A DNA stretch of 32,313 nucleotides from Bacteroidota bacterium (GTDB lineage Bacteria; Bacteroidota; Bacteroidia; Bacteroidales; FEN-979). Where the stretch lies: contig JAUZOW010000010.1 of assembly GCA_030706225.1 (NCBI GenBank), positions 1-32,313 of the forward strand, in the 5' to 3' direction. Of the stretch, positions 4,596-12,149 are shown piece after piece. The stretch's first letter is position 1, and the number at the start of each line of letters is the position of its first letter. The notes beneath the pieces were generated by a model. That model did no database searches. It was given only the letters and a program-made list of their open reading frames with translations, and was not told the DNA's origin. Made by a program: the position numbers and the translations under genes.

Positions 4596-5312
4596 TCAAT
4601 GGCGATGGCTTTCCAGAAGCTTCTGCACCTCCTCTTTATAGGTATCCCCGATAAATAATTCAGTGTCGCCGATAAAGATGCTGTTTTTCCGGATTGAGGT
4701 AATGCTGGGGATTGCAACAAGGTATGATTTATGGATTTGTATGAAAGATGCTTCCGGCAGCTCCTCTTTCATTGCTTTGATCCCCATTCTGACTACAAGC
4801 GGCTTGGGTGTGCTTTTCAGATGGATCTTGATATATTCCCTCAATCCTTCGATGTAAACGATATCACTGAACATCACTTTCACCATGCTGTAACCGATGT
4901 TCACAAATATATACTCGGGAACATATGAAGGAAAATTCTTTTTGTTCTTAAGAAGATATAGTTCCTGAGCTTTATTACAGGCTTTTATGAACCGGTCCAT
5001 GGGGACAGGCTTGATCAGATAATCCACCACATCCAGCGAAAAGCCTTCCAGAGCATATTGTTTGTAAGCGGTAATGATAATGACCATAGGCTTTGCCGAA
5101 GAAAGACTTTCTATAAACTGAAGCCCCGTAAGGCCCGGCATCTGAATATCAATGAAAACAAGATCGATTTTCTGTTCCTGCAAAATCTTTATTGCGGCAA
5201 AAGCATCTTCACAACTGGCAATAAGATTCAGAAACGGTATTTTGCTGATGTTATCCGCCAGTAATTTTAAAGCCAGTGGCTCATCATCGACAGCAATACA
5301 TTTTAACATCAA
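4596..5312 (-). CDS. LytTR-family response regulator (receiver + LytTR DNA-binding domain)
   Basis: Receiver motif CIAVDDEPLALKLL...LVFIDIQMPGLTG; C-terminal LytTR pattern YIFVNIGYSMVKVMFSDIVYIEGLREYIKIHL. Overlaps the kinase gene by 4 bp (ATGA). Confidence 0.95.
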   Translation of the reverse strand: MMLKCIAVDDEPLALKLLADNISKIPFLNLIASCEDAFAAIKILQEQKIDLVFIDIQMPGLTGLQFIESLSSAKPMVIIITAYKQYALEGFSLDVVDYLIKPVPMDRFIKACNKAQELYLLKNKKNFPSYVPEYIFVNIGYSMVKVMFSDIVYIEGLREYIKIHLKSTPKPLVVRMGIKAMKEELPEASFIQIHKSYLVAIPSITSIRKNSIFIGDTELFIGDTYKEEVQKLLESHRH

Positions 5313-6382
5313 TGCAGTTTTATTGTAAGAAATACTTTAAAATGATCCGCTTCCCTGGTAATTGTCAGCTTGTAATTATTGTTGTATAAAATATTCAGTC
5401 TGCGCTGAACATTGTTGAGACCGATGCCGGATGTCTTATCTTTAATCTGTGTTGAAGCGGTATTGTATTTATTCCTGATCTGAAAGAACAATTCATTCTG
5501 CTTGTTGGTCTTCAGATCAATATCAATCTCCGGGTTTTCAATCATCCCAATCCCATGCTTGAAAGCATTCTCAACAAAAGGAATCAGCAGCATGGGCTCT
5601 ATTTCACTCCACTCACTGGCCAGCGAGATCTGCAGATTGATCTTGACTTTGGACCCAAAACGTTGCTGCTGCAGTTCTATATAACTTGTCAGATACTCGG
5701 CTTCCGTTTTCAGTGGTACCTTTTCTTCGTCTGTTTCGTACAGCATATATTGCATCAATCCTGACAATTTCATCAGCGTAGGTTCCAGTTCATCACTCTT
5801 CAGTCGATTTAATGCTACGATGTTATTAAGCACATTCATGAGGAAATGCGGACTTATCTGCGACCGCAGGAAAGCCAGTTCCGTCTTCATGTTTTCCTGT
5901 TGCTTTTCCATCTGCAGCTTTTCTGATCTCTGTTTGTCGACGATCAACTTAAAAGCAATGCTGACGGCAATGGTCAGTAAAAAAGCAGGAAAATTGAACC
6001 GTAAAGAACCAACAAAATCAAAAGGCTCTCCAGTTATAAGGAACCGGAAGAGCAGTGAATGCAGGGCAAGAACCAGAGCAAATGTCAGGATCAGCGAGAG
6101 AACATAATATCCGTACTTTTTCCGGTTAAAAAACCTTGGCATGAGGAAATATGTATTCAGATAGAAGGATATCACCCAGAAAAAATAGCTGTACAGGTTA
6201 AGTTTTAAGAATTCGGCTTCCTGGTTCAGGTTATGAGGCGGATGAATATGATGAGCATGGCTAATGTCGATCAGGTATGGCAAAGAGAAGATCACACTCC
6301 ATACAAGTATATGAATGCAAACCTGTATCCATTTATTTGACCAGTTGGGTCGTTTCATATCAGGAAAAATCGCTCTTGTCAA
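5309..6382 (-). CDS. LytS/YehU-like sensor histidine kinase (His_kinase family)
   Basis: N-terminal TM helices; H-box FLRSQISPHFLMNVLNNIVALNRL; ATP-binding region PMLLIPFVENAFKHGIG and SGIGLNNVQRRL. An alternative start at MKRPNWSNK (6358) is possible. Confidence 0.94.
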   Translation of the reverse strand: MTRAIFPDMKRPNWSNKWIQVCIHILVWSVIFSLPYLIDISHAHHIHPPHNLNQEAEFLKLNLYSYFFWVISFYLNTYFLMPRFFNRKKYGYYVLSLILTFALVLALHSLLFRFLITGEPFDFVGSLRFNFPAFLLTIAVSIAFKLIVDKQRSEKLQMEKQQENMKTELAFLRSQISPHFLMNVLNNIVALNRLKSDELEPTLMKLSGLMQYMLYETDEEKVPLKTEAEYLTSYIELQQQRFGSKVKINLQISLASEWSEIEPMLLIPFVENAFKHGIGMIENPEIDIDLKTNKQNELFFQIRNKYNTASTQIKDKTSGIGLNNVQRRLNILYNNNYKLTITREADHFKVFLTIKLH

Positions 6383-6399
6383 AGTTACGCTATTATTTT

Positions 6400-7623
6400 T
6401 TATTCATATTTTAAAGCATCAATAGGATCGAGCCGGGAAGCTTTTTGTGCCGGATAATAACCGAAAAAGATCCCTGTAATGCCACATACCAGGAACGAAA
6501 TCAGTATGGACATTTCGGATATCAGGATAGGCCAGTGAAGTATGATGGACACCACTTTGGAAGACGCGATGCCAAGAACGACACCAATAACACCTCCTGT
6601 AATGCTGATGATGACTGCTTCGATTAAAAATTGCATCAGAATATCCTTTTCCTTTGCGCCCAGTGACATACGCAACCCGATTTCCCGGGTTCTTTCGGTA
6701 ACCGATGTATACATGATGTTCATGATCCCGATACCCCCAATGAACAGAGAGATTCCGGCAATAGCCGTCAAAAGAATGGTCATCATGCTGGTTGTGGATC
6801 CAATTGCAGAAAGAAGCTCAGCCTGAGTTCTGACATCAAAATCATTATCTTCACTTGCTTTCAGGTGATGATTTTCCCGGATCACTTGCTTTACTTCTGC
6901 CGTTGCAGCATCACTTTGTGCTTCAGAAGCGGCCGACACATAAATGCTTTGCAGATAATGTGTTGCTGTAATTCGTTTCTGAACCGTAGTATATGGAGCC
7001 AGAATAACATCGTCCTGGTCCTGACCGAAATTGCTCTGGCCTTTGGATGCCAGAACTCCAATCACCTGGAAGGGGATTTTATTGAACCGGATAATCTTCC
7101 CGATCGGACTTTGTCCATCCGGGAAAAGATTTTTTACTACCGTTGTTCCCAGCAGACACACTTTAGTGAACGATTTGACGTCCTCTTTCGAGAAAACGAT
7201 CCCATCCTTAAGCTTGAACTGACGGATATCCAGATAATCCGTACTGACTCCTATCAAACTCGTAGGCCAGTTATTTGAAGCATTAATAGCTTGTCCGCTG
7301 GTAGAGACGATCGGCGAAACTCCTTTAATATTGGGAGAATTCAGATTTACGATGGCATCAGCATCTTCCTGCTTCAAGGTTTGCATACTGCTTCCCTGCA
7401 ACCGTACACTTCCGGGTTCATTCATAACAGGCATGATATTGATCATGTTTGACCCCATACCCGACAGGGAGGTATGAATGCTTTCCTTTGAACCTTCCCC
7501 GATAGCCATCATGGTTATTACAGCGGCAACACCGATGATAACACCCAGCATCGTCAGAAATGTTCTGAGTTTGCTTTTCTTCAGGGCTTTAAGAGATATT
7601 TTTAATAAATCAAAAATTTTCAT
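6400..7623 (-). CDS. ABC transporter permease, MacB-like (MacB periplasmic core + FtsX-like domain)
   Basis: LRTFLTMLGVIIGVAAVITMMAIGEGSKESI...GIMNIMYTSVTERTREIGLRMSLGAKEKDILMQFLIEAV...YYPAQKASRLDPIDALKYE. Confidence 0.96.
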   Translation of the reverse strand: MKIFDLLKISLKALKKSKLRTFLTMLGVIIGVAAVITMMAIGEGSKESIHTSLSGMGSNMINIMPVMNEPGSVRLQGSSMQTLKQEDADAIVNLNSPNIKGVSPIVSTSGQAINASNNWPTSLIGVSTDYLDIRQFKLKDGIVFSKEDVKSFTKVCLLGTTVVKNLFPDGQSPIGKIIRFNKIPFQVIGVLASKGQSNFGQDQDDVILAPYTTVQKRITATHYLQSIYVSAASEAQSDAATAEVKQVIRENHHLKASEDNDFDVRTQAELLSAIGSTTSMMTILLTAIAGISLFIGGIGIMNIMYTSVTERTREIGLRMSLGAKEKDILMQFLIEAVIISITGGVIGVVLGIASSKVVSIILHWPILISEMSILISFLVCGITGIFFGYYPAQKASRLDPIDALKYE

Positions 7624-7632
7624 ACTCCACCT

Positions 7633-8379
7633 TTACATTTTTTCAGGATCAGGCAAAGAGACAATTGCCTTTTTGGCCGACCGTTTCTCAGTATTGATCA
7701 CATCCTTTTGAGTCAGACCGTCGCGTAATAAAATCGTTCTTTGGCTAAACGCAGCGATATCCGGTTCGTGAGTCACAAAAACAATGGTTTTCCCTTTCTC
7801 ATTCAGATCCTGCATCAGAGATATGATCTCATATGAGGTTCGGGTATCAAGGTTCCCGGTTGCTTCATCAGCCAGGATAATGACCGGCTCGCTGACCAGC
7901 GCCCGTGCAATGGCAACTCTTTGTTGCTGTCCTCCCGACAACTGATTGGGCATATGATGCGCTCTGTTGAGAAGATTTACAGTTTTCAGCGCTTCCAGAG
8001 CCCGGTCTCTACGCTCTGAGGATGGGATATGCTTGTTGTATATCATTGGCATTTCCACATTTTCAAGTGCAGTAGTACGGGGAAGCAGGTTATACGACTG
8101 AAACACAAATCCGATCTTTTCGTTCCGGAGTTCTGCCAGCGAATTCTTATCCAGTTCTTCCACATTGACGCCATCCAGATAATAGTTCCCGTCAGTAGGC
8201 CTGTCAAGACATCCCAGAATATTCAGAAGAGTCGTTTTCCCGGAACCGCTGTGCCCCATGATGGTAACAAATTCACCGGAATGGATGGTAAAAGAAAGTC
8301 CTTTCAAGGCTTTTACCGTTTCCTCCCCCATGACGAATTCACGCTTCAGGTTTTTTACTTCCAATATCTTTTCTGACAT
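7633..8379 (-). CDS. ABC transporter ATP-binding protein (MacB/LolD-type)
   Basis: Walker [13 protein letters not shown], signature [15 protein letters not shown], Walker [14 protein letters not shown]. Confidence 0.97.
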
Positions 8380-8381
8380 GA

Positions 8382-9575
8382 TTATCTCCTCTTGTTTTTA
8401 TCACCTCCCGGCCTTTTCGGCATAAACGGGCTACTGGAATTCCCTGAAGCTGCCTGAGACATATTTCCCGTCTGACGGATTTCAACAGCTACTTCATCAT
8501 TGGGAGTTAATCCCTGTAACACTTCAACTTTGATGTTGTTATTCAGACCTGTTTTGATGTACTTCTGAACAAGCTGTCCATCCTGCCGTACCCATACAGA
8601 TGTTTCGCCTTCTGAAGCCGGTTGCCGGGAAGACACGAGATGAAAACTTTTAGCAACGCTGTCGGGTGAAAACTTAATGGCTTTCACCGGAATAAGCATG
8701 GCATTTTCAACTTCCTTCGTATAGATTGTGATGTTAGCCGTCATTCCCGGCTTTAGCTTCAGATCTTCGTTAGATGTCCTTATGATTGTAGTGTATGTAA
8801 CAACATTATTCGTAGTGGTCGGGTTCAGCCTGACTTGCTGGATCGTTCCTTTAAAAATATCATCCGGAAAAGCATCAACGGTAAATGTCACTTTATTGCC
8901 TTCTGTAATACCTCCGATATCTGCCTCATCCACCGAAGCTTCCACCTGCATTTCCTTAAGATCTTTTGCAATGCTGAAGATGGTCGGGGTGCTGAAACTA
9001 GCAGCTACCGTTTGCCCTTCACTGACGCTTCTGGAAAGGATTGTCCCGTCGATCGGAGAAAAAATACTGGCAAGAGCAAGGTTTTTCTGGGCTGTCTGAA
9101 CCTGAGCATATGCAACATTGGCTTGTGCCTTAGTGGAATTATAGGTACATAAAGCATTTTCATAATCGGCTTTACTGATGGCACCTGCATTATACAGCTG
9201 GCTCTGTCTGTCAAAATTGTTTTTCTGGTAGGAAAGCTGACTTTTTACCTGCTCGTAATTTGATTTGGCCTGGTCGAGGGATGCTATAAACAGTGTTTTA
9301 TCCAGTTCTGCAAGCAACTGGCCTTCCTTGACTACCGAGTTATAATCAACATATAGCTTTTTGATCGTTCCACTAACCTGTGAACCTACAGAAACCGTGT
9401 TCACCGGCTGAACCGTACCTGTAGTTATAACTGTCCTGGAAATACTTCCTGTCTGCGGTTTTTCAGTAACTACATCAACTTTCTGCTGATCTCCGGAAGG
9501 CTTGAAAAACCAGAACAGTCCTGCAGCTACAACTACTATCAGTACGATAATCCCTATTCTTTTTTTCTTTTTCAT
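8382..9575 (-). CDS. Periplasmic adaptor subunit (MacA/HlyD-like membrane fusion protein)
   Basis: N-terminal TM anchor; TGTVQPVNTVSVGSQVSGTIKKLYVDYNSVVKEGQLLAELDKTLF lipoyl-like motif; coiled-coil hairpin; ends 2 bp before the ATPase gene. Confidence 0.95.
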   Translation of the reverse strand: MKKKKRIGIIVLIVVVAAGLFWFFKPSGDQQKVDVVTEKPQTGSISRTVITTGTVQPVNTVSVGSQVSGTIKKLYVDYNSVVKEGQLLAELDKTLFIASLDQAKSNYEQVKSQLSYQKNNFDRQSQLYNAGAISKADYENALCTYNSTKAQANVAYAQVQTAQKNLALASIFSPIDGTILSRSVSEGQTVAASFSTPTIFSIAKDLKEMQVEASVDEADIGGITEGNKVTFTVDAFPDDIFKGTIQQVRLNPTTTNNVVTYTTIIRTSNEDLKLKPGMTANITIYTKEVENAMLIPVKAIKFSPDSVAKSFHLVSSRQPASEGETSVWVRQDGQLVQKYIKTGLNNNIKVEVLQGLTPNDEVAVEIRQTGNMSQAASGNSSSPFMPKRPGGDKNKRR

Positions 9576-9632
9576 TGTTTATTGATTTTTTATTTCTTCA
9601 TATACGAAGGCATCTGCTTATTTTTCCCGGCT

Positions 9633-10952
9633 CTAAGCGGTCACCGGAGTTCCTTTATAAAAATTGTAAATTTTAATATACAGCAACATTGAATATTTTG
9701 CCTGAACATACTGTTGGAGAGCCTGAACATAAAGATTCTTCTGTTGAAGGTATTCCACATTGTTGTTGGAGCCTATCTTCAGCTCCTCACTTGAGATTCT
9801 GTAAGATTCCTTTGCATAGTCCAGCTGCTCTTTGGCAGCATTAAACTGGCTTTGCGCATTCTTTACGTTGATGTAAGCCTGTTCTATAGTTTGCATCAGA
9901 TTTGTTTTGACATTTTCAGAGGAGAGCTTTGCCTGTTCAAGAGATATTTTTGATTTCGCAACAGCAATGGAATTTGCTTTCTTGTTGTAAATGGGAATCG
10001 ATAATGTCAGACCAATCTGGGGAGTAATCTGGTTCGACTCCTGAATAAAATATGAATTGTACTGATTCGACATGGCACTCATGGAAAGGCTTCCATCCAT
10101 GCTTAAGGTGGGGAAATACCCTGCTTTTGCCATGGCTACTTCAACGGATTGCTTGTTTACAAGGATATCACTGCTTTTAACCTGAGGCATGATCTGCAAT
10201 GCAACTTTCCGGACACTATCCAGAGAAGCAATAGAAATCTCCGTATTGGCATTCTCCGGTGCGGTAATTTCAAAGGAAGAATCAGCAGGCAGTTGAAGCA
10301 AAGTTTTCAGGGAAAGGATATTCTGCCGTCGCGTATTCTCTGCTGCCACCAGAGTATATTTATCCGTAGCAAAGGTTGATTCCAGTTGCATCAGATCTTT
10401 CAAGGCAACCGTTCCGGATTTTAACTTTTCCTTGCATTGTTCTACCTGAGATTCTGAAGTAGTGACCAGATCTTTTACATATTCAATGTTTTCACCGGCC
10501 AGTAATATGTTCAGGTAGGCCTGAGTGATCTGAAGGGTAATGTCATTTTCAGCAGAAGTTACATCCAGATTGGCAGCTTCCAGAGAAAGCTTGCTGGCTT
10601 TAATATCATTATTATAATAATTCCCTTTGAATAAAACCACAGAAGAATTTACACCGTAATTGGTCGAATTCTGAAAATCACTGTTATTGTAAGAAACATT
10701 CTGCGATACCGATGCGTTGAGGCCTGGATATCTCGCATTTTTTGAAAGGCTGAGATCCTGTTTGTCAGAAGAAGCGGTCAATCGCAAGGTATTTATCTGG
10801 ATGTTGTTTTTCTTCGCATATTCAATACATGCCTTCAGATCCCATACTTTTGTCTGTTTCTGGGCAATGCCAGCCGGCAGAAAAGACAGGAAAAGCAAAA
10901 TCATCGACAGCTCTTTGAACTTAACCCGGATCATTTTGATCAATGTCTGCAT
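9633..10952 (-). CDS. TolC-family outer membrane efflux protein (first in window)
   Basis: Signal peptide; two-fold repeated long coiled-coil pattern; VWDLKACIEYAKKNNIQINTLRL N-terminus typical of Bacteroidetes TolC-like proteins. Confidence 0.93.
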   Translation of the reverse strand: MQTLIKMIRVKFKELSMILLFLSFLPAGIAQKQTKVWDLKACIEYAKKNNIQINTLRLTASSDKQDLSLSKNARYPGLNASVSQNVSYNNSDFQNSTNYGVNSSVVLFKGNYYNNDIKASKLSLEAANLDVTSAENDITLQITQAYLNILLAGENIEYVKDLVTTSESQVEQCKEKLKSGTVALKDLMQLESTFATDKYTLVAAENTRRQNILSLKTLLQLPADSSFEITAPENANTEISIASLDSVRKVALQIMPQVKSSDILVNKQSVEVAMAKAGYFPTLSMDGSLSMSAMSNQYNSYFIQESNQITPQIGLTLSIPIYNKKANSIAVAKSKISLEQAKLSSENVKTNLMQTIEQAYINVKNAQSQFNAAKEQLDYAKESYRISSEELKIGSNNNVEYLQQKNLYVQALQQYVQAKYSMLLYIKIYNFYKGTPVTA

Positions 10953-10990
10953 AACTAAAAAAAGTTTAATATCATTTTATAAATCCAGGG

Positions 10991-11020: not shown

Positions 11021-11080
11021 GAAAAATGCAGCAAGACCGGGAAACAAATCAGCAAAAAGGATAAAAAACGCTGCAAGACA
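11021..11080 (-). repeat. Three 18-nt direct repeat units at exact 21-bp periodicity; candidate LytTR regulator binding array
   Basis: Plus strand: 11021 gaaaaatgcagcaagacc / 11042 aaacaaatcagcaaaaag / 11063 aaaaaacgctgcaagaca. Invariant in all three: A-tract positions, C at 9, GCAA at 11-14, A at 16. Outer units match 14/18. The array sits just upstream of the -7 box at 10991-10998. Confidence 0.55.
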
Positions 11081-11174: not shown

Positions 11175-12149
11175 ATGGAAACGAAGATCACATTGCGCTC
11201 TCTTGGCAATTCAAATCTGATGGTTACACCCATCGGACTTGGTACCTGGCAATTCAGCAGGAATCAAGGATTGGCCGGCAAATTCTGGCCGGATATGGAG
11301 GATGATGTCATCAACGGTATCGTAAAAGCCAGTCTGAAAGGCGGAATCAACTGGTTTGATACAGCAGAGGTTTACGGGAACGGAGCTTCCGAAAAAGCTC
11401 TTTCCACTGCACTTACAATTAACGGTAAAAAGCCAGGTGAGGTCATTATTGCTACCAAATGGTGGCCGGCTTTACGAAGAGCTTCAAATATTTTAAGTAC
11501 TATCGACAAGCGGTTAAAAGCGCTGGACCCTTTTCCCATCGATCTGTATCAGATCCATCAACCCTTCGGTTTTTCCGGGGAGAAAGCCGAAATGGCAGCC
11601 ATGGCAAAGCTTGTAAAAGATCATAAAATAAAGTACGTCGGTGTAAGCAATTTTCCGGCCAGAAGAATGCGTTCAGCCTGGGAAGCCTTGCAAAAAGAGG
11701 GAATCTCTTTGATTTCCAACCAGGTCAGATACAATCTCATCGACCGGAAAATAGAAACCAATGGCATTCTGAATACTGCCAAAGAACTGGGTATTTCCAT
11801 CATTTCATATTCCCCGCTGGCTCAGGGGATATTGACCGGTAAGTTTCACGCCGACCCTGACCTCGTCAAAAAAGCCGGCAAACGTAAACTGACCTCCTAT
11901 TTCATGCCTTCCACAATGGATAAATGCAAACCGTTAATTACTTCCCTGAAAATACTTGCCGAAAAATACAGTGTTACCCCTTCCCAGATAGCGCTCAACT
12001 GGCTTATCAATTTTCAGGGAGATTCGATCGTAGCCATTCCCGGTGCCACCAAAGAATCTCATGCCAAAGAAAATACAGGCGCTATGAAATTCATTATGGA
12101 TCCAGAGGATATGGCTCTTTTGGATCAAAAGAGTGAAATGTTCAAATAA
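11175..12149 (+). CDS. Aldo/keto reductase
   Basis: RSLGNSNLMVTPIGLGTWQFSR...GGINWFDTAEVYGNGASEKALSTAL...IDLYQIHQPFGF...IKYVGVSNFPARRM...YSPLAQGILTGKF. Confidence 0.96.
   Translation: METKITLRSLGNSNLMVTPIGLGTWQFSRNQGLAGKFWPDMEDDVINGIVKASLKGGINWFDTAEVYGNGASEKALSTALTINGKKPGEVIIATKWWPALRRASNILSTIDKRLKALDPFPIDLYQIHQPFGFSGEKAEMAAMAKLVKDHKIKYVGVSNFPARRMRSAWEALQKEGISLISNQVRYNLIDRKIETNGILNTAKELGISIISYSPLAQGILTGKFHADPDLVKKAGKRKLTSYFMPSTMDKCKPLITSLKILAEKYSVTPSQIALNWLINFQGDSIVAIPGATKESHAKENTGAMKFIMDPEDMALLDQKSEMFK

Follow-up and report, generated by a model that had tools for sequence, protein, structure and literature searches.

Three direct repeats, phased at exactly 21 bp, lie upstream of an operon that encodes a MacAB-TolC-type exporter, a LytS-type kinase and a LytTR response regulator in a 32,313-nucleotide stretch of DNA from a Bacteroidota bacterium (the window). 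On the strength of sequence comparison, we consider it very probable that the LytTR response regulator encoded in the operon itself (4596-5312) uses this array as its operator, for autoactivation. The array, its spacing, its orientation, its fixed distance from the promoter box and its linkage to a family of regulators are directly apparent in the DNA and in its relatives. It is a concrete predicted operator of fixed geometry, which links the kinase/regulator pair to the exporter.

The efflux operon, its repeats and its promoter

The operon is located on the minus strand and begins with tolC, encoding a TolC-type outer-membrane efflux protein (9633-10952), followed by genes for a MacA-like periplasmic adaptor (8382-9575), a MacB/LolD-like ABC ATPase (7633-8379), a MacB/FtsX-type ABC permease (6400-7623), a LytS-type sensor histidine kinase (5309-6382; PF06580) and the LytTR response regulator that is the putative binder of the array (4596-5312). 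By gene content (TolC-family protein, MacA-like adaptor, MacB-like ATPase and permease) the operon specifies a MacAB-TolC type exporter; two distinct genes encode the ATPase and the permease, and the match stays below the MacB equivalog cut-off. The regulator consists of a receiver domain (PF00072, E 4.5e-20) and a C-terminal LytTR DNA-binding domain (PF04397, E 2.9e-14), both above their gathering scores, and therefore belongs to the LytTR response regulators. Its best NCBIfam match is BtsR (NF008677), but with 110.7 bits against a cut-off of 246 bits it does not qualify as a BtsR equivalog, and a PDB sequence search returned, among the matches listed, matches to the receiver domain only. The divergent neighbour (11175-12149) encodes an aldo/keto reductase and is outside the argument.

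The three repeats, taken as 18-nt units, occupy positions 11021-11038, 11042-11059 and 11063-11080. Their three-way identity at lag 21, summed over the array, is 37/54, a value matched nowhere else in the window when lags 12 to 40 were scanned. Of dinucleotide shuffles made from the 222-bp intergenic region, 0.05% reached it at lag 21 and 0.15% at any lag (p 0.0015). The positions and the exact phasing described in the earlier note are thus confirmed. Since tolC is on the minus strand, the array is upstream of tolC and has to be read on that strand, where the operator units predicted from the sequence and its relatives are CTTGCAGCG (unit 1, distal; 11069-11077), TTTGCTGAT (unit 2, middle and weakest; 11048-11056) and CTTGCTGCA (unit 3, proximal; 11027-11035). 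The relatives point to a functional core of about 9 bp, so that the coordinates and spacing of the original description hold while its 18-nt repeat unit is too long. Direct repeats of ~9 bp that are 10-13 bp apart, with a period of ~21 bp, are the arrangement of a LytTR-type operator (PMC11347149), and the window array, with its three units at a period of exactly 21, conforms to it.

The promoter of the operon is marked by a -7 box, TATTTTTG, which conforms to the TAnnTTTG element of the Bacteroidota sigma-A; with the position of the box relative to the transcription start taken from PMC9723704, transcription is expected to begin near 10986. The array had been said to lie immediately upstream of this box. 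It does lie upstream, with the core G of the proximal unit (11032) 34 bp from the box and hence just upstream of the -35/-33 position of the target promoter; the position of the box itself has to be corrected to 10998-10991 on the minus strand. There is no TTG at the -33 position of the window promoter. At 21-25 bp before the box, a TTG is present in 0 of 31 promoters examined, a count that is supportive and not proof, as few would be expected by chance anyway and the sequences are related. The poor -33 element remarked upon in the earlier note is accordingly common to all 31.

Conservation of the array and its link to the regulator

We scanned a collection of species genomes with the window permease, which yielded 80 loci, and mapped the operon in each. 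In Pedobacter and in a few Chitinophagaceae, the efflux genes are followed by those for an orthologous kinase and regulator (~50-64% identity). Upstream of tolC in Pedobacter there are three units exactly 21 bp apart, with the typical cores ATCTCA, GTCKCA and GTCTCA, and the last core starts 34 bp upstream of TATTTTTG, the same distance as in the window; the unit itself has drifted, being TTCGTCKCA in Pedobacter versus CTTGCTGCA in the window. In the efflux loci of Chitinophagaceae (L100, L216, L219 and L239) this distance is instead 35 bp, and the second or third unit is less clear. The comparison of orthologues proposed in the earlier note therefore shows that tolC upstream regions retain three units at exactly 21 bp. 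What the relatives keep is the number of units, their spacing, their orientation and their distance from the promoter, not the letters of the GCAA core whose conservation had been anticipated.

Because self-similarity alone is only modestly discriminating, we added controls for motif, lag and strand, and because a permissive hand-made score was too loose for individual loci, we used a strict matrix and a regular expression. Among 82 efflux loci whose upstream DNA was long enough (phylogenetically related and counted unweighted), same-strand triples of [GA]TC[GT][AGC] at lag 21 occur in 26, with none at any other lag from 12 to 30 and none on the opposite strand; these lag and strand controls matter since the expression was chosen after seeing the sequences. 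When the strict arrays were paired with TAnnTT-type boxes, the distance from the proximal core was 34 bp in 15 cases, 35 bp in six, 45 bp in two and 16 bp in one, so that 21 of the 24 pairings have a distance of 34 or 35 bp. Moreover, when a matrix built from loci without efflux genes was applied to the window, the best of 48 phases was the one at exactly 34 (score 5.5), and the second best (-4.8) was the identical array shifted by one unit.

The window units score poorly against a matrix of the Pedobacter units and only moderately against one from Chitinophagaceae. The variants closest to them, TTTGCAGCA and TTTGCCGCA, are found at L222 and L205, respectively, where the kinases are among the most similar to that of the window (59% and 56%); the regulator of the window clusters with those of the Pedobacter efflux operons (support 0.886). 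The permease of the window is 72-74% identical to those of Pedobacter and at most 61% identical to any in 247 genomes sampled from the window's own order, and the sampled relatives from the same family contain no close TolC (best 35%). As the permease is nearer to Pedobacter than to its own order and a close TolC is missing from the sampled relatives, the operon (4596-10952) was probably acquired horizontally together with its operator.

The strongest test used a matrix derived solely from the Pedobacter efflux operons, with which we scanned 47 loci (likewise unweighted) that contain a regulator orthologue and lack the efflux genes. Pairs at lag 21 were present in the 300 bp preceding the kinase gene in 15 of these loci and in the 300 bp following the regulator gene in 13, against 0-2 at other lags in either case. 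There were no lag-21 pairs on the opposite strand of these loci, in 82 kb of kinase and regulator coding sequence or in 121 kb further upstream. The occurrence of such pairs beside regulator orthologues that lack efflux genes indicates that the motif follows the regulator and not the pump, which upholds the proposed tie between the array and the LytTR protein. In Chitinophagaceae the operator follows the regulator to other targets, namely the kinase gene itself and neighbouring genes for outer-membrane proteins.

We note some individual arrangements among these loci. At L207, L210, L221, L230 and L238 an operator downstream of the regulator is 34-35 bp from the box of the adjacent gene, whose product appears by eye to be an outer-membrane, TonB-receptor-like protein, and at L208 an operator precedes a gene that looks YceI-like by eye. 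At the Chitinophagaceae loci L211, L217, L218 and L230, the lag-21 arrays that precede the kinase gene are ~45 bp from a -7-like box, one helical turn beyond 34, and further kinase-gene promoters appear by eye to use ~45 bp as well, the boxes being degenerate.

Motif searches outside these loci were less productive. In the genome of the window a triple TTGYNKM pattern matches exactly only at the array upstream of tolC, and its four one-mismatch matches are at chance level (control 3), so the genome scan suggested for further targets disclosed no second exact array and no wider regulon in this genome. Across 121 Sphingobacteriaceae genomes, a census of lag-21 GTCKM triples is uninformative, since most of its matches come from 7-bp tandem repeats (3 x 7 = 21) and coding repeats and the backward control gives similar numbers. 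Many intergenic 7-bp tandem repeats of the GTCTAAT/GTCTCAT type, which spoil lag-21 censuses, are present in G891, G969, G983 and other Sphingobacteriaceae.

Proposed autoactivation and competing explanations

We propose that the LytS-type kinase (5309-6382) senses a signal and phosphorylates the regulator (4596-5312), whose LytTR domains, in a manner dependent on phosphorylation, would bind three units that face the same way, spaced by two helical turns along one face of the helix. With the proximal unit 34 bp upstream of the TAnnTTTG box, its core would be near -46 if the box spans -12 to -5. The bound regulator would then sit just upstream of the missing -33 element, placed to recruit RNA polymerase, and the operon, from TolC through adaptor, ABC ATPase, permease and kinase to the regulator, would thereby be autoactivated. 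Binding, its dependence on phosphorylation, activation in preference to repression, a signal and an exported substrate are all inferences.

The opposite sign of control, in which the LytTR protein would block the promoter until released by a signal, has a precedent in CoxC, which represses from three direct repeats that overlap the -35 element (PMC11347149). In the window the proximal core is instead ~28-34 bp upstream of the -7 box, above the -33 position and not over it; this placement, together with the lack of a TTG at -33, suits activation, and we regard repression as unlikely. Somewhat less likely still is that a different LytTR protein of the genome binds the array. Lag-21 arrays do occur upstream of efflux operons that have no adjacent kinase/regulator pair, and since no LytTR gene of this group adjoins them, a LytTR protein may act there from elsewhere. 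Within the orthologue group, however, the motif adjoins the regulator genes even where efflux genes are lacking, and the window genome holds no second exact triple.

Two explanations dispense with a dedicated activator altogether. Phased A/T tracts might bend the DNA and serve as an upstream promoter element, and T runs do give the window array an extra autocorrelation peak at lag 10 (0.427). Averaged over the set of loci, however, lag 21 is the only clear peak and lag 10 is not a peak, while the relatives conserve the GTCKCA core rather than the T runs and the motif follows the regulator, all of which makes this explanation very improbable. That the repeats are a chance similarity in an A+T-rich intergenic region might be suspected from units that are only moderately alike, the middle one weak, but given the shuffle result at any lag and the orthologues that keep the architecture at the same distance from the box, we give this next to no credence. 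Autoactivation by the operon's own regulator thus remains our preferred reading.

Relation to known LytTR operators

LytTR proteins are known to bind pairs of 9-bp repeats that are 10-13 bp apart, and operators with three repeats have been described for RcoM-1 and CoxC (PMC11347149). Like the window array, the RcoM-1/CoxC operators comprise three direct repeats of the LytTR type (TTCNNGCA / TTNNNGCN), which are spaced by about two helical turns and lie near a promoter (PMC11347149). These proteins are, however, one-component CO sensors of Proteobacteria that control cox genes (PMC11347149), whereas in the window the regulator belongs to a two-component system, the proposed target is an efflux operon and the promoter is a Bacteroidota one with the TAnnTTTG box. 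Autoactivating LytTR operons include Bacteroides examples with TATCTTTG boxes (PMC6193735). HdrRM, BrsRM and the Bacteroides LRS-like systems resemble the window in that autoactivation proceeds from direct repeats that immediately precede -35 and are separated by 11-13 bp, but have two repeats, a membrane inhibitor instead of a kinase and other units; the LRS-like repeats have a period of 22, compared with 21 in the window (PMC6193735). BtsS/BtsR and YpdA/YpdB are likewise kinase/LytTR pairs, which switch on transport genes by way of conserved motifs (PMC5552118, PMC4847170), although their targets are pyruvate and MFS-type transporters, unlike the efflux operon of the window. What is already known, then, is the pairing of LytTR repeats at this spacing and the three-unit sites of RcoM and CoxC. 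The sites of BtsR and YpdB consist of two repeats ~21 bp apart. The fixed geometry of array and promoter is apparently new for this bacterial group, and we found no description of an operator of this kind in Pedobacter or Chitinophagaceae in the open-access literature.

LytTR regulators are numerous in Bacteroidota, and we found few of their operators described in the open-access literature. We see about an even chance that the window array exemplifies a general class in this phylum, in which arrays of two or three units phased at 21 bp, 34 or 35 bp from TAnnTTTG (or, in some kinase-gene promoters, ~45 bp, one helical turn more), would replace the -33 element and be driven by LytTR proteins, the unit varying among CTCA/CGCA, GCWGC and GTCGA with the regulator subfamily. 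If so, the targets of many uncharacterised Bacteroidota LytTR regulators could be read from sequence.

In several efflux operons (L044, L045, L050, L051, L103, L107 and L111) the region upstream of tolC holds two- or three-unit 21-bp arrays of GTCGA/GTCTA, and the LytTR pair is distant or none is adjacent. The regulators at these loci differ in their LytTR domain (RKNS against ERNR in one region), a difference that might be a specificity code.
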